From assembly GCF_032854445.1 (NCBI RefSeq), contig NC_088295.1:42519385-42583384 (forward strand): DNA of 64,000 bases, given 5' to 3'. A program made the position numbers and the translations under genes. This DNA is from Liolophura sinensis. Its lineage: Eukaryota; Mollusca; Polyplacophora; Chitonida; Chitonidae. Below the pieces are notes generated by a model. It searched no databases, had not been told where the DNA came from, and saw only the letters and a program-made list of their open reading frames with translations. Of this stretch, positions 4,801-47,700 are shown in pieces. The stretch's first letter is position 1; each line of letters starts with the position of its first letter.

Positions 4801-7800
4801 CACCTGATGAACCGGTTACCTGTGATTTACCTTTACCTGACCCCACAGGCTGGTCACCGACTGAAAACAGAGCTTAAACCCTGCTCAGCCAAGACTGATT
4901 TCTTTGATCCAGCATCCCCAGGTAAGGCAGAAATTCCTGTAATCCTGTACCTGTAATTTACCTGTAATCAGATTTATTGATTTAGGTTTCAGGAAGTGTT
5001 TGTCTCGGATTAATTGTTTGCATATTGTGTTTCTAAGGGAAACAGTTGTTGCATATGACTTTTGTACAAGGAAAGGTGTATTTGTTTCTTTTATGGTATT
5101 TTCTTACTAGACAATGGCCATCATTATCGGGGAGGAGAAACAAGAAAAGGGGACTTGAAGCAAAGATATCGCCTGTAGATTGTGTTTATTGCCCTATAAT
5201 TCAGTTGGCTGAAGTATTTCATTGAAAAGATAAATCACTGAGCTATCTACCAAACACATATAAAACTAGTGGTATCCCTATAAAGGTTATTATTATAAGA
5301 CAGAGGCATCTACATTTATCCATTGTCCATTGCTTCTTTTGAATTGACCAATTTCACAGCTGAGGGTTAGCTAATTGACCAGTTGACCGTCATACCTCCA
5401 AGTCATCTTAAGCTAGTTGGAAAGTGTTATTTAAAATAACACAGCCTGCTCCACAGTTGTGTTTGTCAAACTGACCAGAACAGCTCTCTGGAAAGTGAAG
5501 TGGAAACGTCAGTGCTGGAAACCTGTAACACCTTCATGGCTGATGGTCAGTTTCACAAATGTTTGGCCATTGAGGTATATTTGTACCATTCCCGGACTCA
5601 GAAGTGTGGGAAAATGCATAAAATAAATACAATTTGACATCTCACCACTAGCAGGAAAAAAGCCAAACTCCAGCCCTTTTTTTATGAGATTAATCCTGTT
5701 GTGGAAGTGAATAATGTGTCTATTAAATAAAATGCGTCTCAAATCACATACTTGTACAATATCACCTCTGTACAGGTTTCTGAATGGCCTGTTCAGCAGC
5801 AGTTAAACTTTACAAATCTATTGCCTGATTACTATAATTCCTTGACCTTCCCAGACTTCCCGAAGAAGTTCATAACGTTGCTTTTGGAGCGTCAGACAGA
5901 TAAGAATGACCACAAGACGCTTCTAGGGATCCTGGAACACTTCCGTAGTCTAAAGCCACACCGTGACAACTTCATACAGATGCTGACCTGTGACCAGGCA
6001 CAAAACGTGCTTGTTCAGACCAGCATCCAGGACAGCAGTAAGAGACCCAAGAACACGGCAGCCACAGCTAAAAGCCAGGAGGCTCCCAAGGAAGAGGCAG
6101 GCCAGTGTGCTGCTGACCCCAAAGTCATGTGCCCAGGAACAGTAGAGAAGTATGCTTGCACCTTGTTTCCTTAATTAGAGGGTAGTGGTTTTACTGAGTA
6201 TCGGTTCCCTAGCAGTGGAGACTATGGGGTTTATCCTTATTGGTCAGTCCATCAGTGTCGGTCCCATCACAAATCAGTTTTTCAGATTTCTGCCCAAAAA
6301 TGGGTCATCATATTGACTTGAAACTTGGCTTAACCATGACAAGGTACAGATGATGTGAATTGGTACATTTATTTTTGAGAAAACAATACTCGTATTTCTG
6401 TGTTTTGAGACATTTTCTTTGTTGGATTAAATTGACATTTGGAACATTGTCTCATATTTACCTGGATCTGGATGTAGTTTTTCTAAGCAATTCTTCGCCA
6501 TTTGAAATAGAAGCGAAATACGGAGTATTGCACTTCTGTAGTACGCTAATTTGTACATCTAGGTCTGGCATAGTTTTACATTGCTAAAGTGCCTTGTGCA
6601 TGTAGTTAGTACATGTAATCCAAGCCTTGCTTCAGCCCAAATATGCTTTGGGCTGAAGTGAGATAAATTGTTTATCTTTTATGCCGTTTGGAATTGATTG
6701 TAATCTTAACACATGTATAATGGACTGAACAAAGAGTTTTGTTTGCTTTCAGACTTTTCACATACCGACCAGTGTCGGAGCGGGGTGGAATTTCCATCAG
6801 CACTGAGGACTTGTTTTGTCTGAGAGAAGGAGAGTTTCTCAATGATGTCATCATCGACTTCTACCTGAAGTGAGTTTTTACTATTGTGATGTGTGCTCAG
6901 TGTACTGATGCTGATTTCACTTGATGCCCCTCTTCACCTGACAACTCCTCACTTGACACGCCTCTCCCCACCTGACTGCCCTCCTCACCTGACTACCGTT
7001 TTCACACCTGACTACCCTCTCCTCACCTGACTCGACTCTCCTAAACTGAATTGCCTCTCCTCACTACCCCTCCTCACCGGACAACTCCCTCTTCACCTGA
7101 CGACCTCCTCTTCACCTGACTACCCCCTCCTCACCTGACTACCCCCTCCCATACTTACTCACCCTCTCAAGAAATTTGTTGATATACAAATCAGCAATAA
7201 TACACAGATCCAGTAAATGTGCCACTATCCAATTTCAATTTCAATTCAAGGTATTTGGTGAATGAAGTGTTGAGTGAAGAAGACAGGAATAGGACGTATG
7301 TGTTCAGCTCATTCTTCTACAAGAGACTGACACAACGACAGGGACGACTTTCTCCTGACGACAAGCAGCAGATGGAGTATGTACTATCACGAGTCTTGTT
7401 TCCCCAAATTTTAACAAAGCCACTGTCCACTGTCTCTAACTGGATCTTTTTGGCTTATTTATCACATTAGACAGTGTTTTTATTAAAACGTTGGAAATTT
7501 GTAGCTCTGCTGGTAAACTTTGTTATTGTAGAAAGTGTGTATTTTGGTCTTTGTTGTGTAATTTTAAGACACTGTTGAACACATCACATTCATATCAGCT
7601 GTATGTGCTGTAAAATTTTATGTATATGATAATTTTATGTGTAAGTTAGAAAATCTCTCTGCTGTGTACCTTTCGAATAGCCGGTACATCATGGAGAAAG
7701 AAATATCACTGTTTTTGTTCTTTTTTTCTGCTTTCAAGTCTAAAGGAGAGGCGTCATGACCGAGTGAAAACGTGGACTCGTCACGTGGATTTGTTTTCTA

Positions 7801-10800
7801 AAGATTTTATTATTGTTCCTATAAATGAACAGTAAGTGTTATAGAAGTGAAGATGTTTTCCTAATATTAGTTTAAAAATCATGTTTTTGTATCTATGATA
7901 CATTTTGTATGTACATCAGTTTGTGTGTACACCAATTAAGATGCCAACAAGTCCCAACTCTCACTGCTGTCAATGCCTTGGGGCTAAGGAGAGCACTCCT
8001 AAGCCACTTTGATGGCCTGGCCTGAATTTTTTTTAGAGATTAGTAACCCTCCACCAGTTTGGCGTGCCCATCGCTCCATGTTAAATATATATGTGTCACG
8101 TTTGGAGTAAGATTCACTAATTTTAAGGCCCATGGTTTACACAGGTTTCCTTCATCCAAATAATCTGATCATTGTTGTACATTACAAAACAATCAGATAT
8201 AAAAAGCATTGCACTAAGAAGCTTTTATGGGCATAGTATTGGCACAAATGTTTTGGTAGCATTTATTGTGTGTGATGAATGGGCGGTCGCTAAGTGGATT
8301 AGTGGGTGGGACACATGAGGTGAGGAGTCGGGCCCAGCCTTGAGCATTGTATAAAAGAGAAATTCTTAGGTGTAATAATTAACAACAATCTGAATCAACT
8401 AAATGTATAAATAATTGTTATTACTAATGTGAGTATGTTCACTCACGTACAGCTCACACTGGTTTCTGGCCATCATCTGTTTTCCTGGTCTGATATCTGT
8501 GAGGTCAAGAGCACAGAAGCAGCTGAACACCACCCCTACCTCCTCTCCGTCGGTTGACAATACTCCTCACTCAGAGGTACGTACATGAACTATGGATACA
8601 TTGTTAACTTTGTGAACACCACCCCTACCTCCTCTCCGTCGGTTGACAATACTCCTCACTCAGAGGTACGTACAAGAACTGTGGATACTTTGTTAACTTT
8701 GTGAACACCACCCCTACCTCCTCTCCGTCGGTTGACAATACTCCTCATTCAGAGGTACGTACAAGAACTGTGGATACATTGTTAACTTTGTGAACACCAC
8801 CCCTACCTCCTCTCCGTCGGTTGACAATACTCCTCATTCAGAGGTACGTACAAGAACTGTGGATACATTGTTAACTTTGTGAACACCACCCCTACCTCCT
8901 CTCCGTCGGTTGACAATACTCCTCACTCAGAGGTACGTACAAGAACTGTGGATACACTGTTAACTTTGAACACCACCCCTACCTCCTCTCCGTCGGTTGA
9001 CAATACTCCTCACTCAGAGGTACGTACAAGAACTGTGGATACACTGTTAACTTTGAACACCACCCCTACCTCCTCTCCGTCGGTTGACAATACTCCTCAT
9101 TCAGAGGTACGTACAAGAACTGTGGATACACTGTTAACTTTGTGAACACCACCCCTACCTCCTCTCCGTCGGTTGACAATACTCCTCACTCAGAGGTACG
9201 TACAAGAACTGTGGATACACTGTTAACTTTGTGAACACCACCCCTACCTCCTCTCCGTCGGTTGACAATACTCCTCACTCAGAGGTACGTACAAGAACTG
9301 TGGATACACTGTTAACTTTGTGAACACCACCCCTACCTCCTCTCCGTCGGTTGACAATACTCCTCACTCAGAGATAGGTACAAGAACTGTGGATACATTG
9401 TTAACTTTGTGAACACCACCCCTACCTCCTCTCCGTCGGTTGACAATACTCCTCATTCAGAGGTACGTACAAGAACTGTGGATACATTGTTAACTTTGAC
9501 CACCACCCCTACCTCCTCTCCGTCGGTTGACAATACTCCTCATTCAGAGGTAGGTACAAGAACTGTGGATACACTGTTAACTTTGTGAACACCACCCCTA
9601 CTTCCTGTCTGTCGGTTGTCAATAATCCTCACTCAGAGGTACGTACAAGTACTGTAGATACACTGTTAACTGAAATCTTACCCCACAGGTGGTCTGGGTA
9701 CAAGTACATTGTGAGTACATTATTCCCCCAAAAACAAGGACCACCAACCACCTGCCACCACCACCCCCACCCCGCTTCCCAGTCTTGTGAATAAATTCAG
9801 TTTTTTAAAGGGCATTGCTTCTTTTTTTTCCAGATTTTGGACTAACATAATGTCCATATGTTATATTGTTATAATGTGAGCATGTTCGAGCTGCCCAGTA
9901 TATTCCGAATAACTACAAAAGTTTAGGAGCCCAGGGTGGGGGGGTTGGGGGGGCAGCATGTCATCTTCTCATTGTGTGACTGTCTTGTGATTTCAGTCTA
10001 TGGAGACCAGTGATGATGGTAGTGAGAGCAACACTACAAATCCAGTGGATCAGTTCCCCTCTTCTCATGCACAGTAAGTCTGTCAACATGCATCACTCAG
10101 CCAGACTTTTTGATGTTTGTTCTTTTTACACTTGCTCAGTCATCTACACACCCTGATGTGGAAAACTCCATTGCACGGTAGCTGTAAATTGCTGGGTCAG
10201 CTGGAGCCTGATGTGGATAAGGTGACACCACCCTCTTACACAGTAGCTGTAAATTCCTGGGTCAGCTGCAGCCTGATGTAGATCAGGTGACACCATCCTC
10301 TTACACAGTAATTGTAAATTGCTGGGTCAGCTGTAGCCTGATGTGGATAAGGTGACACCACCCTCTTACACAGTAGCTGTAAATTCCTGGGTGAGCTGCA
10401 GCCTGATGTGGATAAGGTGACACCACCCTCTTACACAGCAGCTGTAAATTGCTGAGTCAGCTGTAGCCTGATGTGGATACGGTGACACCACCCTTTTACA
10501 CAGCAGCTGTAAATTGCTGGGTGAGCTGCAGCCTGATGTGGATAAGGTGACACCACCATCTTACGCAGTAATTGTAAATTGTTGGGTCAGCTGGAGCCTG
10601 ATGTAGATAGGGTGACTCCACCCTCTTACACAGCAGCTGTAAATTGCTGGGTGAGCTGCAGCCTGATGTGGATAACATGACACCACCCTCTTACACAGTA
10701 ATTGTAAATTGTTGGGTCAGCTGGAGCCTGATGTGGATAAGGTGACACCACCATCTTACGCAGTAATTGTAAATTGTTGGGTCAGCTGGAGCCTGATGTG

Positions 10801-13800
10801 GATAAGGTGACACCACCCTCTTACACAGTAGCTGTAAATTGCTGGGTGAGCTGCAGTCTGATGTGGATAAGGTGACACCACCCTCTTACACAGTAGCTGT
10901 AAATTGCAGCTGGAGCCTGATGTGGATAACGTGACACCACCCTCTTACACAGCAGCTGTAAATTGCTGGGTGAGCTGCAGCCTGATGTGGATAAGGTGAC
11001 ACCACTCTATTACACATTAGCTGTGTAGCTTACAAGGTCAACTGCTTCCTGGTGTGGAAAAGGTGACACAAAACTGTTACCCGCTAGCTGTATCTTGCTA
11101 GGTTAGCAATAAACTGATTTGAAAAAGGGATAATTGCGAAACATACACAGCATCTGTACCATGTTGAGCCAGCTCCAATCTGATGTTGAAAACATGACAT
11201 CACACTATTACACTATGGCTGTGCATGTAGCTTGCTGGGACAACTGCAGCCTCAGGTAGAAAACTTGAATTTACAGGTATCATACATGCATGGCTTGAAA
11301 TGAACTTGTGCATCTTTGCACCCATTATTTTAATCACTACCTTGCCTATTAAGCAGCTTAGTGTATTTCAACTTATTTTTCTCAAGTATCTGTCAAGCAG
11401 AAGTGCTTCTGTTTCTCTGCATTATCTTTTGTTTTGGTCAGAAGCTCAGAAATAAATGTACACATATGACAATTGTTAATCAGTTTTGCTTGTCCCATCT
11501 ATGATTCTGGCTGATTTCCTGCTGTTTCAGACCCTGTATTTTGGTGTTTGATTCACTGGCCGGCCCAGCAAGGACAACTGTGGTTAAAACACTCAGAGAG
11601 TAAGTATGATACCATATCCTGCAGGAGAATAAGGTTGGAGTCGGTTATGTTTGAGTCGGTTATGTTTGAGTCGGTTATGTTTGAGTCGGGTTTGTATGTG
11701 TAAAGAATTTTAGGTACACAGGTCAGTGGAAATCAACTGCAGCGAGATGCTTAATAGACAAACACAGAATAGATTTATTTTATTTGTTTATTTATTTGAT
11801 TGGTGTTTTATGCCGTACTCAAAAATATTTCACTTATACGACAGCGGCCAGCATTGTGGTGGGAGGAAACCGGGCACAGCCTGGGCAAAACCCACAACAA
11901 TCTGCAGGTTGCTGACAGACCTTCCCACTTACCACAGTAGACAAGACCCTATATACCTGGGTTAATTTTCATTCTGGTGAAGCATTGTCCTTAAACCTCA
12001 GTCAGGATTGTTAAGTGGGGTAGATGGCCCTTTTTTTCTTTGACAAACTGCCTAAAGTATTCTATTATTCAGTTAATAGTGCAAACTCAGTCTTCATGAA
12101 GTGTACGTAGTGTTAAGTATCATCTGTGAAACTGAAGGCTGTCAAAAAATCTTTGAGTTGGAATTGGGGGTGCTGAGCTGGTTCTGGGTTCCCAGTATGT
12201 CCATTGATGACGTCATTTCTGAATATATCCGATCACTGATGGAAAATATGCATGAAGTAAGAGATATAAAATATTCCCAAAATTGAAAATAAAGTTCTTT
12301 TTTTTTACACATCTTTCCTTAAAACCATACTCTTCATTTCGTAGTACTTTTTCATGGATCCTTTAACCCATATCCGCCCAAGTACGGTGTACGCCGTACG
12401 TGTTTTGAAAGCTGAATATGCCCAGATACGGGGTATTCCGTATCATCATTTAGGTCACGCTTTTCTTGGCTTGGGGAATCCCCGTAGCATTGATGTGACG
12501 TCAGATCTGCTTCAGTGGGCTTCCGTTGTAGTTGCAGTCTTGTGTTTTGCGATTTTGAAGAAATTTACATCGATTGTTCAGTAAAATTAGTGGACAGTGC
12601 AGGCGGGGCGTGGCAGGTTTTGTTTACACACGTGTTTACCCTGTGCGGACTGAGCATCTCGCGCTGTTGGAGGTGATTTTTGTGTGTAAAAATGGCATTC
12701 AAAGGAAAAACGAGAGACTTGCCCAAGCTATCAACAGTGGAGGAGATATATCGCAGCTCTTTAGTGATGATTCTGAAAGTGAAATTGAGTTTGATTCTGA
12801 TGTGTCAGACGTCTATGTGCTGCATAGTTTTGGTGACAACGGAGATGTCAACACCAGTAGGCCTAGGCCTAGATCAACTACTAGCAATGGTAATGTTGCT
12901 GATGGTAGTGATAATGACAGTGACACTGACATTGGCGATGTAGATCTACATGATAATTCTTCTGAATCAGATGACCAGTCTATTCCTGCACGTTCTCGTC
13001 CACGCAAAAGAGGTCGACCCAGAGGCCCAAGGAAAAGGTCAACAGTTCCCAGTCCTCCCAGGGTGTGGACAGACAACTTGACTGTAAATGTCCCTAAAAG
13101 ATTTACTGGCCCTGCACCTGGCCCTACTCAAGACCACTCAAATAAGAGTGTCCTAGAAATATTTCAACTGTTTTTCACTGAGGAGTTTATTTCAGAAACT
13201 GTTCGATTGACAAATCTGAACTACGAAAAAAAACACACAGAGAAGCCTGAAAAAAATAAGTCTTCTTTCCCACCTTTGACAAACGCTGAACTAAATGCAT
13301 GGTTGGGGCTGGTTGTGGGTATGGGACTTTTACACATCTCGAAATCCAAAAATCTCCAGTCAGAGTTCGTTCTCTTGGCATACCGGTACAGCCGATAAAC
13401 TAATCAAAGAATAATATAATTGATCACTCAATACATCAATCCATGAGTGTGAATGAAATCCTGGGTTCAAAAGTTACTTTATTTGATATGATCTGTGGCC
13501 CCATCTGCATAGAATAACATCTTGGTATTTTCAAATGTGTCCAATTACATGTCATACAATGTTTGCAAAAATTGATTTGAGCCATGATATTTGATGAGAA
13601 TATCCCCAAAATAAATCAATTTACCTGGACAGAGTGATTGATAGTCTGTAATTTTATTTTATTGTGTTTATGGACATGTTACATGGTTACTGTACATTGA
13701 AATGGAGCTGTAACACTTCTGGATATTCTAACTTGTGTAGTGACGTTATATTTCAAAACAACACACCTGTAATTAATTCTCACCTGTTACCTTATACTGT

Positions 13801-15764
13801 AGCTAAGTAAGTTGTGATGTCTGTCTCTGTGTACTACGCCAATACCTCTATAATATCCAGGAAAGAAATCATTTTATAGCTTTATTTCTGATTTTATGGG
13901 TGCAGATAAACCTACAACTCCACTGTTGTGATAAATTTACCCCCACTATTCTTAGTTTTCACAGGTACGGTAACCATGGCAACAGCAAAAATGTTATGTA
14001 ATAAATCATTCCATGTTGTAGGACAGTTATTAGGCTTTCTAACAGTATATAACTTGACATAGTTCCTTTCAAACCAAATGTGTAGAATCTACATTTTCTG
14101 TTCACTGTGCAGAAAACAATAGTTATTTTTCTATAGGACTGGGCAGATTCAGCTTTATTTACTAAAAATTGCTTGGGCGGATATGGGTTAAGGGTTTACT
14201 TAGCTAAGTGTTCTTCAGGACACGAGAGCCAGATGGTAAGTTGGAGACCCAGGTTCAAATCTTTGCTTAGTCATATGAAGTATTGAAAACTAGTGCTCTG
14301 GAGCTCATTGGACGAGAGAGCATACATTTGGGCTGCATAAAATTAAAATTAAATTTTGACCACATCTTAAATGTTGTCTTATGAGAAATATGTGAAAATT
14401 TCAAATTTCAGTAGGCCTACCAAATCCTGAGCATTGTGAAAATGTTTTGTAGTGAGAATTGATCATGGTGTAACTGTAACTTCTGAGAAGTTGTCACATA
14501 TTCAGCATGATGCTTCAGTGAGGCATCATTTTATGGCATGATGACATGTAGAACAGTGTGCATTTGGCAATGAAATAAATTAGACTTGGCATTATTATTC
14601 ATGAAGTTATAATATCATAGCTTTGTTTAAAAGTAAAGTTACTGTGTACGTGTGTATGAGTTTTTTTTTTTTTTATTCTTGCTTAAAAATATAATTTACA
14701 TCCACTTGTGTATTTGTGATATGAGATCCATTTGTTTTTTTTTTTCAGATACTTAAGTGTGGAATGGAATGCAAAGAAAAAAACCTCACGAACATTTGAT
14801 AGGGACACTGTAAGAGGTGGTTATCCAAAAGTACCTCAACAAAATAATTTCAGCGACTGTGGTGTTTTTGTCCTCCAGTTTGTGGAAAGTTTCTTCAAGG
14901 TATGTGTACATATACATAAAAATGGCAAGGGGAGTGGGGTGTAGTGCTGATTTTTGATTTATTTATGCGGATAGTACAAAGTTTTACATTTTATACGATA
15001 GAATAGAGTTTTTTCTCCCAATCTGTGCCTGGGAAATTCTGGTTGGCCAAACTGTAAAAGATGTCAGTTGTCTGTCTTTGAAACCCTTCAAAACATATTT
15101 AAATGTTTGAAAAGTAGCACTTTCAGATTACATGTATATCCTGGAGTAGCCATCCACCACACAGAGAATGTGTGTTACCTTCCAGCTGTGTTACCCTCCA
15201 GCTGTGTTACATCCAGCTGTGTTACCTTCCAGCTGTGTTATGTTCCAGCTTCTGTTGGCGTATCTTCAGTTTCCATGCCAAACAGACTTAATTGTAATTG
15301 ACATTGGAGAAAAAGGCCTGAATTCTAAAGCTATCGTTCAGTTTATTCAATTTAGTTTTTTTTAGGAAATATTACCGGGCCTGTCCTACAACATATTTAG
15401 TATGTCAAATAAGGTCTACTGATTTATACTTTACTTTTCAGAAACCTATCACAGACTTCAGCATTCCAGTTAAGGGTTTAATGATTTATACTCTCCTTTT
15501 CAGAAACAGACTTCAGCATTCCAAACAAGGGTTTACTGATTTATACCTTACATTTCAGAAACCTTTCACAGACTTCATCATTTCATTCATGGGTTTACTG
15601 ATTTATACCTTACATTTCAGAAACCTATCACAGACTTCAGCATTCCAGTCAAGGGTTTACAGGAGTGGTTTTCTGAGGAGGAGGTGTCGCGGAAGCGTGA
15701 ACAGTTGAGGAGTCTGATTTTATCTTTACATCAGAAGAGCAAAACACAGTCCTTACCGTCATGA
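1544..15764 (+). CDS. SENP6/7-like: SENP6/SENP7-like (Ulp2-type) SUMO-specific cysteine protease, 5' incomplete
   Basis: Isopeptidase of the C48 family, expected to trim poly-SUMO chains in the nucleus. Exons I place (all with GT-AG edges): 1544-1883, 2325-2656, 3261-3444, 4742-4921, 5776-6149, 6753-6869, 7251-7376, 7739-7831, 8453-8576, 9997-10073, 11531-11599, 14749-14899, 15621-15764. Two weaker exons, 5111-5174 and 5484-5574, would mend the phase between 4921 and 5776. The N-terminal half has a four-cysteine knuckle and a SUMO-interacting motif. The catalytic domain starts near [20 protein letters not shown] and carries His ([13 protein letters not shown]), Asp (ILVFDSL), Gln and Cys ([16 protein letters not shown]). 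The Ser/Thr-rich insert between the His and Asp blocks is typical of SENP6/7 and not of SENP1/2. With the weak exons included, the visible protein is about 821 residues. SENP6 and SENP7 cannot be told apart; an invertebrate is likely to have one pre-duplication gene. Confidence 0.9.
2325..2656 (+). CDS. SENP exon with SUMO-interacting motif
   Basis: Completes the codon left open at 1883 (G+AA = Glu) and reads [13 protein letters not shown]: a hydrophobic V-T-I core followed by Ser and acidic residues, the classical SUMO-interacting motif also found in the N-terminal parts of SENP6/7. The rest is Ser/Asn/Asp-rich and probably disordered. Ends phase 0 at GATGCG|GTAAGT. Confidence 0.75.
2816..3033 (-). 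repeat. SINE family 1, reverse orientation
   Basis: TTTATTTGATTGGTGTTGTA, CACTTACGTGATGGCGGCCA, GGTTGCTAGGAGACCTTC and CTCCTGGGTCAT, in a SENP intron. Confidence 0.9.
3261..3444 (+). CDS. SENP exon (pre-catalytic conserved strand)
   Basis: Acceptor gttgaacag; translation includes [20 protein letters not shown], resembling the conserved pre-catalytic segment of SENP6/7. Ends phase 1 at GAAT|GTAAGT and joins 4742-4921 in frame (T+GT = Cys). Confidence 0.75.
3690..3945 (+). repeat. SINE family 1, near full length
   Basis: GAGGGTTAGCACGCCAGCCC head remnant, GGTGTGAGTTCAAGTCCTGC B-box-like region, CTCCCATTATAATGCTGGCC core and AAATAAATAAATAAA tail. Confidence 0.92.
4742..4921 (+). CDS. SENP exon
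   Basis: Reads [20 protein letters not shown] and later [15 protein letters not shown]. Acceptor tattccctag, donor CCAG|GTAAGG, ending phase 1. The next certain exon at 5776 must be read in phase 0, so at least one exon with length 2 modulo 3 is missing between them. Confidence 0.75.
5111..5174 (+). CDS. Possible small SENP exon (phase-repair candidate)
   Basis: Acceptor ttcttactag; the open reading begins [20 protein letters not shown] after the joining codon. The proposed donor CCT|GTAGAT is weak. Phase goes 1 to 2, which fits the previous exon and the candidate at 5484. I know no family resemblance; support is phase only. Confidence 0.3.
5484..5574 (+). CDS. Possible small SENP exon (phase-repair candidate)
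   Basis: After the acceptor ccagaacag it reads [20 protein letters not shown] and continues to the donor GAG|GTATAT. It takes phase 2 to 0 and so connects 5111-5174 to 5776 in frame. It is acidic and Ser/Thr-rich, as is common in the linker of this family. Support is phase and open reading only. Confidence 0.35.
5776..6149 (+). CDS. SENP exon leading into the catalytic domain
   Basis: Open in phase 0 after the acceptor ctctgtacag; begins [20 protein letters not shown] and ends in a Lys/Gln/Ala-rich linker. The donor GAGAA|GTATGC leaves phase 2, which joins the next exon as [16 protein letters not shown], exactly where the SENP6/7 catalytic domain begins. Confidence 0.8.
6753..7376 (+). CDS. 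SENP catalytic-domain exons (6753-6869 and 7251-7376)
   Basis: First exon: [20 protein letters not shown] then [19 protein letters not shown]-type sequence, the hallmark start of the Ulp1-like fold. Second exon: [20 protein letters not shown] and [20 protein letters not shown]. The join across AA|G gives Lys. The donor at 7376 (ATGGA|GTATGT) is chosen over 7380 because only it keeps phase with [14 protein letters not shown] in the next exon. Confidence 0.88.
6920..7155 (+). repeat. Degenerate ~20-bp pyrimidine-rich tandem repeat in SENP intron
   Basis: About a dozen imperfect copies of a unit like CTCCTCACCTGACTACCC. Each contains CTGAC beside a C/T run, i.e. it resembles branch point plus polypyrimidine tract. 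The array ends about 100 bp before the exon at 7251. Confidence 0.7.
7739..7831 (+). CDS. SENP catalytic exon
   Basis: Joins the previous exon as Asp, then [20 protein letters not shown] and [10 protein letters not shown]. This is the strand before the catalytic His in the family. Donor GAACA|GTAAGT, phase 2. Confidence 0.88.
8453..8576 (+). CDS. SENP catalytic-His exon
   Basis: CA+C completes His; reads [17 protein letters not shown] with the catalytic His before Trp, then a Ser/Thr/Pro insert ending [17 protein letters not shown]. The first donor GAG|GTACGT at 8577 gives phase 0, which fits the next exon. Its last 52 bases with 37 bases of intron form the unit of the array that follows. 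Confidence 0.88.
8525..9675 (+). repeat. 89-bp tandem array carrying an exon end and its 5' splice site (13 copies)
   Basis: Copies start at about 8525, 8614, 8703, 8792, 8881, 8968, 9055, 9144, 9233, 9322, 9411, 9498 and 9587; spacing is 89 bp, three times 87 bp. Each unit holds the last 52 bases of the SENP exon ending at 8576, then the donor and about 35 intron bases. Most copies keep GAG|GTACGT; the copy at 9322 has GAGATAGGT and the one at 9498 has GAGGTAGGT. The last copy is the most diverged. Only copy 1 is attached to an acceptor-defined exon; 89-bp copies end their reading frame at a TGA, while 87-bp copies stay open. Confidence 0.95.
9997..10073 (+). CDS. SENP exon (Ser/Asn-rich catalytic insert)
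   Basis: Acceptor gtgatttcag, phase 0; reads [20 protein letters not shown] and on to HA, donor CACA|GTAAGT in phase 2. It forms the second half of the low-complexity loop between the His and Asp blocks. Confidence 0.8.
10150..11030 (+). repeat. 65-bp minisatellite in SENP intron 11 (about 13 copies)
   Basis: The unit runs GTGACACCACCCTCTTACAC, AGTAGCTGTAAATTGCTGGG, then TCAGCTGCAGCCTGATGTGG and ATAAG, repeating every 65 bp from about 10157 to 10996, with one shortened copy near 10905. Each unit contains an acceptor-like CCCTCTTACACAG and a donor-like ATAAG|GTGACA about 43 bases later. Confidence 0.93.
11531..11599 (+). CDS. SENP catalytic-Asp exon
   Basis: CA+A completes Gln; reads [20 protein letters not shown] then TLRE. 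The Asp in VFDSL is the catalytic acid of the triad. Donor GAGA|GTAAGT, phase 2. Confidence 0.9.
11636..11692 (+). repeat. 17-bp tandem repeat (GAGTCGGTTATGTTT)
   Basis: Four copies just downstream of the Asp exon donor, in SENP intron 12. No further role seen. Confidence 0.75.
11776..11965 (-). repeat. SINE family 1 fragment, reverse orientation
   Basis: Left end is the (AAATA)-type tail read backwards, followed by the conserved core (ATTTCACTTATACGACAGCG, CAGCATTGTGGTGGGAGG). The tRNA-like head is missing. Confidence 0.85.
12367..14187 (+). mobile_element. piggyBac-type element with 16-bp perfect terminal inverted repeats and TTAA target duplication
   Basis: The left end is TTAA at 12363-12366 followed by CCCATATCCGCCCAAG; the right end is CTTGGGCGGATATGGG followed by TTAA at 14188-14191. 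TTAA duplication and CCC-starting termini are diagnostic of piggyBac. An inner palindrome GTACGGTGTACGCCGTAC lies next to the left terminus. Inside is only the amino-terminal part of a transposase, followed by about 0.8 kb without coding signal, so this 1821-bp copy cannot be autonomous. It sits in SENP intron 12, on the gene's sense strand, between intact exons. Confidence 0.9.
12574..13398 (+). pseudogene. Truncated piggyBac (DDE_Tnp_1_7) transposase, N-terminal part only
   Basis: Recognisable parts are an acidic amino terminus ([20 protein letters not shown]), a basic AT-hook-like stretch ([15 protein letters not shown]), and the start of the family domain ([40 protein letters not shown]). 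Reading stops at TAA 13396-13398, before the segments that hold the catalytic aspartates. An ATG with good context at 12692 lies in a different frame from the transposase-like reading, suggesting a frameshift close to the true start. Confidence 0.8.
14749..14899 (+). CDS. SENP catalytic-Cys exon
   Basis: GA+A completes Glu; reads [20 protein letters not shown] and then [20 protein letters not shown]. The Cys in SDCG is the nucleophile, with the oxyanion Gln just before it. Donor TTCAAG|GTATGT, phase 0. Confidence 0.93.
15174..15252 (+). repeat. Short tandem repeat TTACCTTCCAGCTGTG (5 copies)
   Basis: Imperfect 16-18 bp units in SENP intron 13; each carries an acceptor-like TTCCAG or a variant (CTCCAG, ATCCAG). 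Confidence 0.75.
15420..15660 (+). repeat. Tandem array of the last SENP exon's 3' splice site (4 copies)
   Basis: Junctions TTTCAG|AAAC fall at 15442, 15504, 15559 and 15621 (spacings 62, 55, 62). Each unit has about 30 bases of intron end (TTTACTGATTTATACCTTAC, ATTTCAG) and about 30 bases of exon start (AAACCTATCACAGACTTCAG, CATTCCAG). Only the fourth junction continues into the family-like C-terminus. Junction 1 would give a different open tail; 2 and 3 lead to stop or frameshift. Confidence 0.93.
15621..15764 (+). CDS. SENP terminal coding exon
   Basis: Reads [20 protein letters not shown] then [20 protein letters not shown] and ends at TGA 15762-15764. The K(P)I..F.IP...L..WF....V..KR pattern matches the C-terminal helix region of SENP6/7. 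The acceptor is the last of four tandem copies. Confidence 0.88.
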   Translation, partial: KPITDFSIPVKGLQEWFSEEEVSRKREQLRSLILSLHQKSKTQSLPS

Positions 15765-16420
15765 CACAGGCCTTCTGAAGTGCTACAGGAGCAGACTTTG
15801 TTATACTGTAGTACAAGGATAACAGCATTTGTGATGGGGGGTGCATTCCTGTTGAAATGAGGCATCTTTTACCAGCATGACTCTGGCTTTCTGGAGTTTT
15901 ACAACCATAACACAGGCCCTGTGTCCTACAGGAACGGTTCTTCTGTAGCACAAGGACTAACAGTGTTTGCTATGGGTGTTTAGTCCAGAGAAAATAAAAG
16001 GTGTGTTTTGCTACCATCACGATGGATGTACTGAGTCCCAAAGGAGCAGGAGAAAACAAATCAGAGGTGTTGTTCAACAATCACAACTACAGGAACAGTC
16101 CTTCTGTAGCACAAAGACTAACAGCATTTGTGATGGTTGTTCAGTCCAGGGGAAACAATAGATGTGTTATTCTACCATCATGATACAGGTTCTGAGTTCC
16201 AAAGGAGCAGGCCATGAGATAGGTTGTGAGCAAACAAGGTACGTGTGAATTTAGTGGTGGTACAGAAAGACCGTTACACCAGCCTGACACAGGCTCTGAA
16301 GTCCTACAGGAGCCATTCATGTGATTCTGCAGTGCAAGGATTGACTGCATTTGTGGTAACAGTGGTAATAGAAGGGGCATTATTCTGTCATCATGATACA
16401 GTCTGCTCCTGCAGACTGTG
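15753..16420 (+). repeat. ~150-bp degenerate tandem repeat forming the SENP 3' UTR
   Basis: Five or six diverged units start near TACCRTCATGACACAGGYTC, continue CTACAGGAGCAG..CTGTAGYACAAGGACTAAC, and then AGCATTTGTGATGG. The first unit contains the gene's stop codon (cgTCATGAcac), so the repeat grew from the end of the coding sequence or invaded it. Confidence 0.8.
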
Positions 16421-21030: not shown

Positions 21031-24000
21031 CTGGAAGAAAAATGAAAAAAATTCATTAGTTTGTACAACATATATGCACTCGTTATGCTCATTTAAGTTC
21101 AATCAACTGTTTAATGAGGTTGTCCACAGTGCACAATCCTGCCACACTGCAGGAGTTGATAATTCAATAATACGAGTGCAGTGTCCCTCGAAAATAATGC
21201 ATATCTGTCACAGAGTATAAGTCGCATACCTCAGCTTCAAATAGTATTCATTCCATTGCTAAAGAACAGTCACTTACACCTTCTGCAGATCTGAGGAACG
21301 TAATTTTTGTGCATGACAAACCCTGCATGTCTGACAGAGGCCATGCCTCCTGAAAAAAGTTGCCAAGTCATCACTGCCTAATTTGGAAATTGCACACATA
21401 ATGTTTTGATACTTGACATTGTATTTCTTTGGGTCCTAAGCAATACACCCAACGCATGAAGTCGTTCGCATGAAAGGTTGTGGGAAAAAAATGAAAAACA
21501 GACATACAGAAATTCCTTCCTTTATAAGTTACATGTAAATGGTGTACTTGGAATAACTTAGTGAAAAGATCAGCTTATAACTGTTTCTCTTGTCACAATA
21601 GAAAGTTCTCAAAAGTGCTCCTTATCTGTGCTGTGCATAACCAGTACTGGAGATGTAGGTCAATACAGGAAACATAGCTACACGTCTGTGGCCATTAGCA
21701 GCTTGTGGTCATAGACATAAACAACATCGCAGGGAAAAAGACATAAAATGTCATTCAAGGCATTAGGAGTAAGATTACAATGTGTTAATCCTTACTTTGA
21801 GGACAGTAATGGAAATCATCAAGCCATGACGAACAAAGACATTACAGTGTGTACCACATGTACTTAAAATGCAAAATATACGAACAAATTTATATAACAG
21901 TATACTCAAGAAAAAAAAAAATTACAAAGAAACTTGACTGACAATGGAAAAGTGAAGATCATATCCAAGCAATTTGCATGCAAAATAAAACATGCACATA
22001 TTACATGTGATATTTCTTGTAATTAACAACAACAATACCAATGGCTAAAAGTGTATCTACATGCTGAACATTCACACAAATGTATATACAAGTTTATTAC
22101 AAAGAAACATTTAATCAGATAAAAAAACTTCAAGGAAACTTCACAAAGAAAAATATCCACATTCCACACAGTGATGTACTGTACATGGAAATGTATTGAT
22201 GAAGCTGTTCTGCATCTATTTTTCAAAGGCATTAAACATGTTATTCCAGATTCTTCTTATCAGCTTCATTGTATTAAACTTCTAGGTCTGGCTGACATTC
22301 AAGTGAAAAGGCTAGAAAAAGGACGGTACGAGCTAAGGTCATTTGGGTGACAGCAGCTTGACAAGTACATGTACAGGAATAGAATACCTGATATATGCTT
22401 AAATCTACATCACCCATATCTGTAAAGATGCACCAGAAAAGTTTAGTCCACATCTAGACATGGGTTCAGCATTTACCCTGTTCCTGTTTTCTGCCAGAAC
22501 TTCGTGGGCTTGTCGGCTGTGACTGACTTATGTTATATTGGAAAAATATCAGGATTTAGCCAATTCAGAATTCACCAGATTGCATTCAATAAAAACATAA
22601 GTTCACCTATATTATGGATCAAATAACTCATCCTTCATATGAATAATGATGTTGCTACCCTCTTAACAGTCTATTTTGGGCTTCTGATATGCCCATTTTC
22701 AAGGTTTTTAAACATAATGTTTTTGTTTTTTTTGGACGAGTATTAAACTCCTTAGGGTTTTGAAACCTGGCTAAGAAAATGACCAAAATTAGTGAACAGC
22801 CTTTTAAGAGCCTCAGAAGTTCAAAAGACAAATAATACAAAAAGACTGGGAATTTTGTGCATCAGGTATAAAAAGCTGACATTGGTCTTCAGTCTATGGC
22901 TATTCTAAAGTCAACTCAAAAACTTTGTGGGTCAAACATTACAACACAAAAGAACTGAAAAAAATCGAGAGATTTGACAACCCATCCTGAAGGAAAATGA
23001 GTACGAAGTTTCTCCAGATTTTGACATGAGAAAGTTTGCCATGCCAAAATTTAACCTAAATGAGTCAAAATATTCACGTAGTCTAAACACTATGCCTGAT
23101 GCTTTTTTTGATTATCAGTCTTGAGTTCAAACATACTACTTTAAGAAGAATTTGCAATTTCTAAACAATATTGCCTTTTGCTGATGTACCAAAATTTTGG
23201 TACCAAAAAAAATGAAAAAAAAAAATTTGCTACACCTGTCTATCTAAACACATTGTTAACAGAATTCGTTAAGAAATGAGCTCAGCTTACATGCACTTAA
23301 CCATAAGGAAATTTATTGTCTCCATTTTTCGAGACGTTCACACTACTGGCTATCCTGGCATATCAACAACACAGTTTAACATGTATGCAGCAGTACATTG
23401 GCTGTGGAAGGGGTAGGTACATAACATGTACAGTAACATGCAGGCTAACATACACGTACATGGTCACTCACCTACCTTCATATCAGTGAATCATCTGATA
23501 ACAACCACAAAAACTTAGCTTATGTTTGGTTCAAAACACTGCATACTGGGCCAAATAAGTTTTATTTTTGAATCAATTTATTTATATGATTTATTTGATT
23601 GTTTATTTATGCTATACTCAAGAATATTTCACTTATACAATGTTGGCCAGCACTATGGTGGAGGAACCGGGCAGAGCATGGGGGAAACCCACTACCATCC
23701 GCAGGCTGCTGAGAGACCTTCCCACGTACAGCCAGAGAGGAGGCAGCATAAGATGGACTTAACCTCACAGTGACTGCATTAGTGGGAGGCTCCTGGGTCA
23801 TTGCGCCATGCTGCTGTGCTAACCACAAGGAGGGGGCATGAATCAACGATTTTACAGCTGCTCACATTTATTCATGTTGGCATCAACTATTCTCATTATC
23901 TGTCAAGTGTTTCCGGATAAAATACACATTATTTCGCAAGTACAGGTTTTCTGTAATGTAAGCAAAACTCAACACATGCTTTTCTTTATTGCCTAGTGAA

Positions 24001-41700: not shown

Positions 41701-44700
41701 AACCATAGTTTTCAAATATTTGAATGCCTTTCAACACTCTCAAGGGCATCTGAAAAATAAATAAAAGTATTTTTACGCATAGTCTTCAGTTTTTACGATG
41801 AACCTTACTTCATATTTTAGCTTTCTTTTCCTTTAACCTTAATGTGACGCTCTCTCAGCTATCAACAAATAGTGTAAGATGGCGGCCTAGTTTTACTTCA
41901 GTATTGCTTTTTTCCCCAAAGGGTATATTCGATGAAAATAGTGGAATAAATATTAAAAAAAAAATGAAATAAAAAACATGTAACAATCAAGCAGTTAAGA
42001 AAGTGAGGATCTGTTTGGTTTTTGATCTACACAGCCTCACATTCATGTCCAGTCTAAGTCAAGGGAGACAACTTTGATGAATAAAAGAGATGAATAAAAG
42101 AGATTGCCTGTACACTACTCCCTCGAAATAATACGCTCAACTGCACCCAAAAGATTCACATCCTGTTATAATCGAATCCACGCAAAATCGAATCCTGACA
42201 AGGCAGATAATTTGTAACAGCTGGAAAATAAGTAGAATTCTGAACGTGACCAACGACAGTTGTATGGTATGATACAAAATGTACACAAGAATTTCAGGTA
42301 CTTGTGCTGATTGAGTTACCTAGTTTAACAAAAAAATAACAGTAATAAAAATTCTTGCATGTCGCAATGAAGTCTTGAAATAATGGAACATTATCCCATG
42401 AAAGTGATTTATCATTGCTTTATCCGCAAATCGATAATCTGTTATCTTCGAGAAAGGCGAATTTTAGACCTGCACGACAAGAGTATGTCAAGAATTCTTT
42501 ACTTTTTTTTATGGAATAATGTATTTTAAAGAAAGCAAATCTTAATCCGCCTTGACAATGTATAAGAAAGCAAAGATGGCGACTACACACTGATACATCT
42601 CTGGACTGGTGACAATAAATCTGTCACTCGAAATAAACACAAAGGGGGATTCTTCCCAAGTCTTCGTAGGTCGAGCAAAGGTCACTCCACAATACACATA
42701 TTTCCATTTATATTTACATAACAGCTGAACAGATAAATAATGTTTTTCAACCAAATTTCCACCGCTCAAGCAGGCAAGCCTCATGGTGATTTGAAAGAAA
42801 CATACTTGGTGTTATGGTAAATATGTTATATTACGACTTTACATTAATAAAAACTTGATATACACTCAAATTTGGTCAAAAGTAATGCCTCAAGAGGTAC
42901 TTGTGACAACAATTTTGCCGTTTTTCCCCTTAAACATTTTGATACCGGTACAAAAAAAAAAAAAAAAAAAAAATGGGGGACACCACACCATCGTGTTGAT
43001 TGCGATTCCGCCTTAAATCAAGCCGCGTAAATTCGAGAGAGCGGTGTAATTTCATCCAAAATCCAGTGTATTGTTTCAGGAATGCAATGTAATTGATAAC
43101 ATGACCTTCAGCTAAAATGTTTGAAGAAATATGATGGCATCACACTACTGTAGACTAATTTCTGAAGTTTACTGAACGAAAGATTATGGCTTAATACCAT
43201 ATCTGCATTATTTTAGCCATGTTGTGACGGTACAGCTTTACAAACCTATCACTGTGAAGTGTGATTTCTTGTGATTTAGGGTTGTACTTGTCCCCCACAA
43301 GTCGGATCAGCTTGTCTCGGCCATGATAATCCAATTCCAGTCTGGGCAGCTTCAACTGACAAAGAAATTGATTTCTCAAAGGGTTTGATGTGACAATGGC
43401 ACTTTCTTCACTTGGATTTGCCATTTTTTGTTTTGTTTTTTTGTTTGTTTGTTGATAGAAGCCCACAGGTAGGATCATATTTACATCAAGGTATAAAATG
43501 ATTATGGTAAATTTCATCCAGAACAGTGCCATTTTAAAGGTTTTTTTTTTTAAATAAAAGAAACATGAAACAACACCTTTCTAAGGGTCAATAGATTATG
43601 GCAAAATGCAAACCTTAGTCATAGGCAAAATTTTAGGTAATTTGCTATTTTTAGTTTTTGTGAAACATTTTATGAAGTAGGGTTGATTCATCAAATTAAA
43701 ACAACATAACAACACATTAAAACAACTGATCAGACTGTAGCTTGTTCAAACTGCTTGATGCTGGACTCACCTTACCTGCTTACTTTTAAGGGGCTACAAT
43801 CATAGTTTTTAATCTTGACCATACTGTAGCTTATTCAAAACTGTCTGATGCTGGACTCACCTTACCCGCTTACATTTAAGGGGCTACAATCATAGTTTTT
43901 ACTTCTGACCACACTGAGGCTTATTCAAACTGCTTGATGCTAGACTCACCTTACCTGCTTACGTTTAAGGGGCTACAATCATAGTTTTTACTTCTGACCA
44001 CACTGTAGCTTATTCAAACTGCTTGATGTTGGACTCACCTTACCTGCTTATGTTTAAGGGGCTATAATCATAGTTTTACTTCTGACCACACTGTAGCTTA
44101 TTCAAACTGCTTGATGTTGGACTCACCTTACCTGCTTATGTTTAAGGAACTACAATCATAGTTTTACTTCTGACCACACTGTAGCTTATTCAAACTGCTT
44201 GATGCTGGACTCACCTTACCTGCTTACTTTTAAGGGGCTACCAATCATAGTTTTTACTTCTGACCACACTGTAGCTTATTCAAACTGCTTGATGCTGGAC
44301 TCACCTTACCCGCTTAAGTTTAAGGGACTATAATCATAGTTTTTACTTCTGACCACACTGTAGCTTATTCAAACTGCTTGATGCTGGACTCACCTTACCT
44401 GCTTACGTTTAAGGGGCTACAATCATAGTTTTTACTTCTGACCACACTGTAGCTTATTCAAACTGCTTGATGCTAGACTCACCTTACCTGCTTAAGTTTA
44501 AGGGACTATAATCATAGTTTTTACTTCTGACCACACTGTAGCTTATTCAACTGCTTGATGCTGGACTCACCTTACCTGCTTACGTTTAAGGACTACAATC
44601 ATAGTTTTTACTTCTCACCACACTGAGGTTTATTCAAACTGTTTGATGCTGACTCACCTTACCTGCGTACGTTTAAGGGGCTACAATCATAGTTTCCTAT

Positions 44701-47700
44701 TCCTAAATTTGCCAATCACCTAATACTTTGTCCTTGGTATCAGGCTATAATAGTAACAACCTCTGCAGCCTTCCCGCTGTAAGGCATGGGATCCAACATA
44801 CCCCATATCCCACCATCCATTCTCCCATTTTCATTCCATTCTCGGTAAAATCATATGTGATTGTCCACAGAAAGACTTTGGTCAAAAGTGTTTTCTTGAT
44901 TTACACTTCTGTAAGGTCCAGACCAGGTACAGGTGTGTAAGATGTATCGCTGGCTCTTTCTCACAAAAGTTACCATACCTTGCATGTGACTCCTCTGGCT
45001 TTGGGGTTGCGTATTGATGGACCTGCTGACAAGTAATTAGATGATATCACCTCTAGGGGGAAATGTGCCCTCACATTTCTCATCTGTTTCCAGTCCTTTA
45101 GGCCAAGGTGTACAGAATTCTGGATCACAAAGTACAACATTTACATATTTATTTGATGGTTGTTTAAGTCATACTCCAGAAGTTTAAACTTATATTTATT
45201 TGTTTATTTGATGGGTGTTTTACGCCACACTGAAGAATATTTCACGTACATGACAGAGGCCAACATTGTGATGGGAGAAAACCGGGCAGAGCCCGAGCAA
45301 ACCCTTTACCATCTGCAGGTTGCCGACAGACCTTCCCACATTTCAACTTATAAGTTGATGGTCAGTTTTATGGGTGGCAGAAGTAAGAGTAACCCACCAA
45401 CCTTTGGTAAGATACTGACCAACTTTCTCGTGTATGACATTACAGATATGCACATCATACTGGTGGAAGACAAGTGGAATTTCAAAATGTGCGCCTGTTC
45501 ACAGCTGTCAACCAAGCTGGCCAAGAGTGGCCAAACAACAGTTAGAGCGAGAGAATCTAGAGTATAAATTCCACACATCGTTTGTGCTGGAGACTGACAG
45601 GCAAGTGCCTTAATCCACACACCCTAACAAACAGAATACACTGGTGAAGCAAAAGTAGTTCAAATTTGCCGCCTTAAATGTGATGTGAGGCTTTCTGAAT
45701 ACAACGAAAACTGATACAAAGTTTTCAACTTAAGTCAACAGTCATTTTGACAGCAGAGTGATGTCACAGAGCTGTCAACAGTCATTTTGACAGCAGAGTG
45801 ACGTCACAGTGCAAAATGACGTGGCTGCTTTATGGAATAGTAGGGCTACATGTCAATCTTTTAACAAGGAAATATTCAAGTTTAGATAAAACTACGAGCA
45901 GGATATAATTTTCTTTTCAATGCCTGATACCTAATACCCAATACCACAATAAAAAAATTAATCTAATCCTGCTTAATTAGTTTTTCTATATTCTATATGC
46001 CACCCATGTTAAACTCCTGTGTTCCATAATTTGTCAGAGATATTGTGGAAATGGCAACATTACAGAACTGGCAGGATGTAAAATTATTACAAGCCTTGGT
46101 CCAAAGTTCCATATACGGAACCACTTACTCTTTAGGCCTGGCAATGTGTCTTGATATGAGCAGGTGTTAGGTGAAGAAAGTTGGGGATCTTCATCAACTC
46201 TGCATTAGCATAAGCTGCTGGGGATACACCTTTATTCTCATCTGCATTCTACAACAAGAGATAAGGAGACAGCTTTTATACTAGCATGTCTATGCTTTAC
46301 CAAAAGATAAAACAGATTACATTTGGTGTAGGAGACACATGAATGCAAAACACTTCAGCTGAATACATAAAGTACTACGGTCATGAATTTGTAATTCTCT
46401 TTGTACGGACATTTTTAGAGGTTTTAGAGGGACATGGTTCAATAATATAAGTGAACAAGGACTTATCTGGTTCTTAATTGGTTGGAGTTTTATGCCATAT
46501 TCAAGAATATTTCACCTATATTCATTATTTCTCTGATGTTTTACACCATACTCGAGAATATTTCACTTATATGATGGCGGCCGGCATTATGATGGGAGGA
46601 AACTGAGCAGAGCCCTGGGGGAAACCCACAACCAGCTGCAGGTTGCTGCTAGGCCTTCCCAAGTACTGCCAGAGAGGAAGCCAGCACGAAGTGGACTTGA
46701 ACTCACAGCGTATTTCATCTATAGATATAATAGTGGCCAGCGTTATGAGGGAGGAAACCTGGCTGAGACCGGGGAAAACCACAATAATCTGCAGATTGCT
46801 ACCAGATGCATATGACAAGAGAAAATGCCAGCATGAGCGGGTTAAAATCTAAAGAGTTTCAGAACCTCAAGATTTGCCATAGTGCCTGGTGTTGATGATT
46901 GGAATACACAGGATCACCTTATGCCAAATTCTTAACTGAGGCAGTTCTTCACATACCATGGGGATATCAAGAACCAATTTATCACAGGCTTATACTCTGG
47001 TTGTAGAGACAAAAAGTATACAAATTTTATAATTCTAAAAGAAGCCGCTCTGTAGATACGGTGGTAACTCAAAAATGGTTTACCTCAAGACAAACGAAAA
47101 TGCTGCCACGCTTGAAAATGTAGTAAAATATCTGGTGTCCAACGCGGTAATCATAGGTAAACATGATGGTAACCATTATCCTCTTCATATTACAAGCACA
47201 GGGGAATCCGTGGCTTGGTTAGCGCACTAGCACAGCGTAATGACCCAGGAGTCTCTCACCAATGCTGTCGCTGTGAGTTCAAGTCCAGCTAATGCTGGCT
47301 TCCTCTCCGGCCGTACGTGGGAAGGTCTGCCAGCAACCTGCGAATGGCCGTGGGTTCATAATGCTGGCTGCTGTCATATAAGTGAAATATTCTTGAGTAC
47401 GGTGTAAAACACCAATCAAATAAATAAATAAATATTTACAAGGACATCTCTGTATTTCTCTAGCCCTAAGAGTTACAAGCGCAATAATCCTGTCACCTAA
47501 TGACGCTGGACAAGTGACTGTCTTTGTCAAGAATGACCTGCCCATCAAGTCCTTCCAGTTCTGTCTCAGCTCTTACCTTGGCATAGCCCTGTCTCACAGG
47601 AAATGGCACAACAGAGGATTTAAATGTGGACCGTGCTGGCCAAACAGCCGTCCAATCATGTTCTGGTTTGAGACGCTGGGACCTATCAGGTGGAACCTGT

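Follow-up and report, generated by a model that had tools for sequence, protein, structure and literature searches.

We asked what it means for a gene to carry one of its 5' splice sites 13 times in a row, and whether the extra copies change the protein that the gene encodes. The locus lies in the window, by which we mean the whole 64,000-nucleotide stretch of Liolophura sinensis DNA that was analyzed; the gene, its splice sites and the array at issue are all on the + strand. The first-pass annotation had described a 13-fold amplified 5' splice site with its exon directly upstream, and both a repeat finder and an alignment of the units on the splice site confirmed this. Tandem Repeats Finder placed the array at 8524-9671 (period 89, 13.0 copies, 96% matches, score 2079), and the alignment gave 13 units at 8525-9673; we record the feature as 8524-9673. 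Nine units were 89 bp long and four were 87 bp, the length of the last 87-bp unit being set by where the array edge was cut. Each unit consisted of 52 bases of exon end, identical or nearly so to the end of the exon at 8453-8576, followed by 35 or 37 intron bases that start with the donor. As a repeat the array is far beyond chance, and its head-to-tail, near-identical units of tens of bases (89 × 13.0, 96%) are those of a minisatellite.

The donors were located at 8577, 8666, 8755, 8844, 8933, 9020, 9107, 9196, 9285, 9374, 9463, 9550 and 9639, with spacings, in order, of 89, 89, 89, 89, 87, 87, 89, 89, 89, 89, 87 and 89. They were of moderate strength (7/9 consensus matches). GAG/GTACGT (-3 to +6; the slash marks the exon end) was present at 11 of the 13, in line with the earlier statement that most donor copies are intact. 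That account had also named altered donors in the units starting at 9322 and 9498, and we found both: copy 10 reads GAG/ATAGGT and its donor is dead (ATAGGT, 9374-9379), and copy 12 reads GAG/GTAGGT (GTAGGT, 9550-9555). The duplicated segment carries AG/GT, as intron gain by AGGT tandem duplication calls for, in 12 of 13 copies (GAG/GTACGT in 11, GAG/GTAGGT in one). Three pairs of neighbors were identical (copies 3 and 4, 5 and 6, 8 and 9), a pattern that slippage or unequal exchange would leave, and copy 13 at the edge had 5 changes in its exon part and 4 in its intron part. We queried all 609 Mb of the assembly with the first unit; this search, which skipped very common words and scored the best candidates only, returned 13 matches, all inside the array and none elsewhere among the matches listed. 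An assembly artefact, whether a wrong copy number or a false tandem, is highly improbable, as substitutions and 2-base indels distinguish the copies and the array occupies 1.15 kb inside a 96-Mb contig.

The host gene is of the SENP6/7 type of SUMO protease. A spliced frame remained open through eight exons: exon 1 (taken from 6755), exon 2 (7251-7376), exon 3 (7739-7831), exon 4 (8453-8576), exon 5 (9997-10073), exon 6 (11531-11599), exon 7 (14749-14899) and exon 8 (15621 to the stop), numbered over the part read. As far as the Asp block, the frame matched Peptidase_C48 (PF02902, E = 4.4e-22); its best match was human SENP7 (3eay, E = 5.4e-50), the next was Ulp2 (E = 4.2e-12), and SENP2/1/5/3 and Ulp1 followed more weakly. 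The Peptidase_C48 domain is closest to SENP6/SENP7 (the Ulp2 branch), within a comparison list that had no SENP6 chain, and SENP6 and SENP7 are therefore not told apart. The catalytic His, Asp and Cys blocks fell in one open spliced frame, with the Asp block (PCILVFDSL) in exon 6 and the Cys block (NNFSDCGVF) in exon 7. The putative catalytic triad residues fall within these blocks.

Exon 4 encodes the His, is 124 nt long and ends in phase 0 at GAG/GTACGT. Its putative donor was assigned from frame and homology, and its end runs into a region where the SENP7 alignment varies. The introns that flank it are 621 and 1,420 nt long. Exon 5 (77 nt), the next after the array, was placed from frame and splice signals only; it takes the frame from the phase 0 in which exon 4 ends to that required by exon 6. 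The spliced frame and the homology thus put the array between the His and Asp blocks, where it had first been placed. When we searched with a 199-residue query, the 17 matches at E up to 0.1 comprised six of the gene's own exons, ten rows of the array and one 34% match (C1:72.84 Mb); none was a retrocopy or paralogue showing the used junction.

We joined each donor to exon 5 and onward and translated the product. The full frame was obtained by direct use of donor 1 only (GTACGT, 8577-8582). Donors 2-13, with the dead copy 10 site counted, all gave one identical truncated product (12/12) that ends in HSEVRT and a stop. The stop is an in-frame TGA at 8586-8588, in the intron part of copy 1, which reads GTA CGT ACA TGA. 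No other copy shares this stop: at that place copies 2-12 have ACAAGA and copy 13 has ACAAGT. The truncation falls before the Asp and Cys blocks. Because the TGA in copy 1 stops every later exit, unit length is irrelevant to simple donor choice. It had been proposed that a later donor would add a repeated segment, or stop the frame, depending on 89- or 87-bp units; neither the repeated segment nor the dependence was borne out, as the product ended in HSEVRT whatever the unit length. We reject the tuning of insert length by donor choice alone on the same count. Messages that encode such truncated products would probably be subject to nonsense-mediated decay.

Which donor, then, would be used? 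The donor 1 site is no different from ten identical ones, and we see no intrinsic ground for preferring it. We would nevertheless expect donor 1 to dominate from its position, because exon definition would favor the first donor of a 124-nt exon between introns of these lengths. One study (PMC9225289) transfected cells with five minigenes from human genes, each offering a pair of identical 5' splice sites, and found exclusive use of the upstream one; the flanking introns were 365 nt, a length chosen for exon-definition recognition. Weakening of both donors led preferentially to skipping of the larger exons; the smaller ones still used the upstream site. The same study gives an older and opposite rule for intron definition, by which the downstream donor is favored, and reports the downstream donor as preferred in ~60% of all human events counted. 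Competing-donor minigenes (Shenasa and Hertel 2022, and Reed and Maniatis as described there) resemble our locus in that several equal donors of one exon face one acceptor. They differ from it in having two designed sites, whereas the array has 13 natural and moderate ones.

An intron-centered proximity rule of this kind (PMC9225289) would favor the last donors of the array. Later donors would be used to an appreciable extent, with a truncated product or decayed mRNA as the outcome, and copy number would set the productive share in the manner of a poison-donor rheostat. The equality of 11 of 13 donors at -3 to +6 and the single early stop shared by all 12 later exits would fit such a device. 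Exon definition, as set out in that study, favors donor 1 instead, and exit at the last donor would create a 1,186-nt exon. A comparison of variable columns among the copies also weighs against it. In copies 2-12, the donor was variable at 2 of 9 columns and the rest of the unit at 4 of 78 (P = 0.12); over all 13 copies the counts were 2 of 9 and 15 of 78 (P = 1.0). In neither set did the donor columns show stronger conservation than the other columns, a comparison of few columns and low power. Conservation of donors beyond that of the unit, which would mark a regulated alternative 5' splice site, was absent, and one donor is dead. The column comparison gave no sign of selection on donor identity, and we regard control of the productive share by copy number as quite unlikely. 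The suggestion in the first-pass annotation that copy number tunes protease output finds no support in donors that are not extra conserved, one of them dead, and in a genome where minisatellites are common.

The exon part of the unit varied less than the intron part. In copies 1-12 the variable columns numbered 2 of 52 in the exon part and 6 of 35 in the intron part (P = 0.056), and with copy 13 included they numbered 7 of 52 and 10 of 35. Neutrality does not obviously predict this lower variation. A structured RNA was rejected as a candidate, since 8453-8800 (348 nt) folded no better than shuffled sequences (z 0.75; 74 of 100 at least as good). No Rfam family reached its gathering score in 6500-16000.

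The units may also be read as acceptors. If each unit were both donor and acceptor, copies left in the exon could later be spliced out, and a splice from donor 1 to the AG of a later copy would restore exactly the same mRNA. In 11 of the 12 later copies an AG stands directly before the GT (copy 10 has AG/AT). The units end C/T-rich, in CAGAG/GTACGT, and the pyrimidine share at -20 to -4 was 0.65 in 12/12 later copies, within the 0.59-0.94 of the gene's seven inferred acceptors. The later copies were free of AG for 74-87 nt before the CAG; the AG-free distance at the seven inferred acceptors was 19-49 nt, none reaching 60 nt. In the window, 44 of 1,829 YAG sites passed both acceptor cut-offs and 12 of these 44 were the array's own; none of the seven inferred acceptors did so, with cut-offs that were chosen after seeing the sites, and the count therefore has no value as a test. 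These acceptor measures are crude and were themselves picked after the sites had been seen. In addition, the CAG two bases before AG/GT may win, which would add 2 bases and shift the frame.

Introns that arose by tandem duplication of AGGT segments have been published (PMC4974935 and PMC3443670). The potato RdRp (PMC4974935) and fission-yeast genes (PMC3629103) are like the array in that an AG/GT segment stands in tandem and both the GT and the AG can come from one copy; the introns gained in the fission-yeast SPOG_01682 and SOCG_00815 are themselves tandem repeats. In contrast, the segment in our array spans a pre-existing 5' splice site, is present in 13 copies, and intron gain from it is only hypothetical. 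In potato, the duplication extends over a 3' intron boundary, and the fission-yeast paper names AGGC as proto-site and calls for further work on how SPOG_01682 is spliced in vivo. We judge it unlikely that the array erases itself in this way, and equally so that dual donor/acceptor units make it splicing-neutral, free to expand, and a source of introns and of in-frame 29-residue exons in the His-Asp loop.

To produce an in-frame insert, by comparison, a further internal splice would have to lead into an 87-bp unit and remove the intron part of copy 1. By such a splice the 87-bp units (copies 5, 6 and 11) could serve as cassettes of 29 or 58 residues and vary the His-Asp loop with copy number. 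Four of the 66 internal entry/exit pairs were open through the Asp exon (5-6, 5-7, 6-7 and 11-12), all of them made of 87-bp units. The two 87-bp units at 8933-9106 (+) would form hypothetical open exons of 29 or 58 residues upon translation, if entered at the GAG/ of copy 5 or 6. The catalytic domains of SENP6 and SENP7 are reported to contain conserved insertions of sequence (PMC4281951), and exon 4 ends where, as noted, the alignment with SENP7 is variable. The frame was not kept in the other 62 of the 66 combinations, however, and the cassette would need an internal acceptor of unproven strength. We therefore hold a copy-number dependent insert to be very unlikely.

We assessed how ordinary such an array is in this genome. 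In 14 stretches of 10 kb, at preset places on 11 contigs, Tandem Repeats Finder gave 23 arrays of period 25-200 with at least 2.8 copies in 140 sampled kb, or one per 6 kb; by the same definition the 64-kb window held 6. Six of the 23 had a donor-like GT (at least 7/9 matches to CAG/GTAAGT, either strand) in their unit. Arrays, and donor-like motifs within them, are thus common in the genome. At 34 fetched gene loci we counted 7 arrays in 123 kb, of which one was the 3' array of the SENP-type gene itself and two were a single array in overlapping loci. None of the 34 had an array overlapping the matched coding stretch, and these loci give no support to the idea that exon-overlapping arrays are common. 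A kinase survey (28 loci) served as an extra genome sample; it is poor for exon boundaries, its best matches being long exons. The array resembles minisatellites (VNTRs) in introns in its tandem 89/87-bp units, 96% alike, with some neighbors identical and the last copy diverged. It differs from them in taking in a coding exon end and an inferred functional 5' splice site. In the literature, judged by title and abstract start and with subscription papers thinly covered, we found no natural multi-copy 5' splice site array, which is a weak negative, and the available part of a survey of tandem repeats in Daphnia and other genomes (PMC3152781) has nothing on splice sites.

Taken together, these data make it probable that we are dealing with a near-neutral minisatellite that arose over the end of exon 4, with the first donor used and the later copies inert intron. 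The array would have begun with a tandem duplication spanning the 3' end of this exon, and slippage or unequal exchange would have expanded it to 13 copies. The donor at 8577 would be joined to 9997, and copies 2-13 would be carried as inert intron. Under exon definition the spliceosome would choose the first among many equal donors, any leaked use of later donors would lead to nonsense-mediated decay, and the array would evolve nearly neutrally. Such an array would be tolerated because exon definition favors the first donor, and it looks like an ordinary minisatellite because exit from an extra copy only truncates the protein and the genome is repeat-rich. The amplified splice donor is a confirmed curiosity: a minisatellite on a 5' splice site that is most likely inert.

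The array nonetheless offers a natural test of spliceosomal choice where one exon has 11 identical donors. The read-out is clear, as the enzyme is obtained by direct use of the first donor only. Use of the first donor only would be a clean natural confirmation of exon-centered donor choice. Should the later copies be used and subsequently spliced out, the locus would give a direct view of harmless intron making by AG/GT tandem duplication.

Further repeats were observed in the same gene. The 3' splice site of the last exon and the start of that exon also stand in tandem copies (15442-15620, +; by repeat finder and frame), within an array at 15406-15660 that has four TTTCAG/AAAC copies (78-89% matches, by the row taken). 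Exon-like starts were present at 15442, 15504, 15559 and 15621, the first three with extra acceptors before them; we take the true last exon to start at 15621, the in-frame copy being the last. Arrays of a donor and of an acceptor site thus occur together in the SENP6/7-type gene. A 65-bp array of 13.8 copies (10174-11069) took up a large part of the intron after exon 5 and contained nine copies of the acceptor-like CCTCTTACACAG. Just past the donor array, at 9677-9716, an acceptor-like CTTACCCCACAG/G and a donor-like ATT/GTGAGT enclose 22 nt, which would cause a frameshift if used as an exon. The intron before the Cys exon held an open stretch at 12562-13395 with a weak match to DDE_Tnp_1_7 (PF13843), just below the cut-off.

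Elsewhere in the window, a second 89-bp array of 10.9 copies was found at 43726-44695 on the - strand, different in sequence from the donor array. On that strand it repeats a strong donor-like CAG/GTAAGGTGAGT, and no exon was recognized there by eye. Nearby, also on the - strand, an open stretch at 43194-43577 matched the mitochondrial ribosomal protein family MRP-S28 (PF10213, E = 1.2e-4, just over the cut-off) and is perhaps an intronless copy or fragment. A dispersed repeat, which we take to resemble one common in mollusks, recurred in ORF translations across the window, for example at 2682-2948, 11714-11965, 23519-23773 and 46537-46815.
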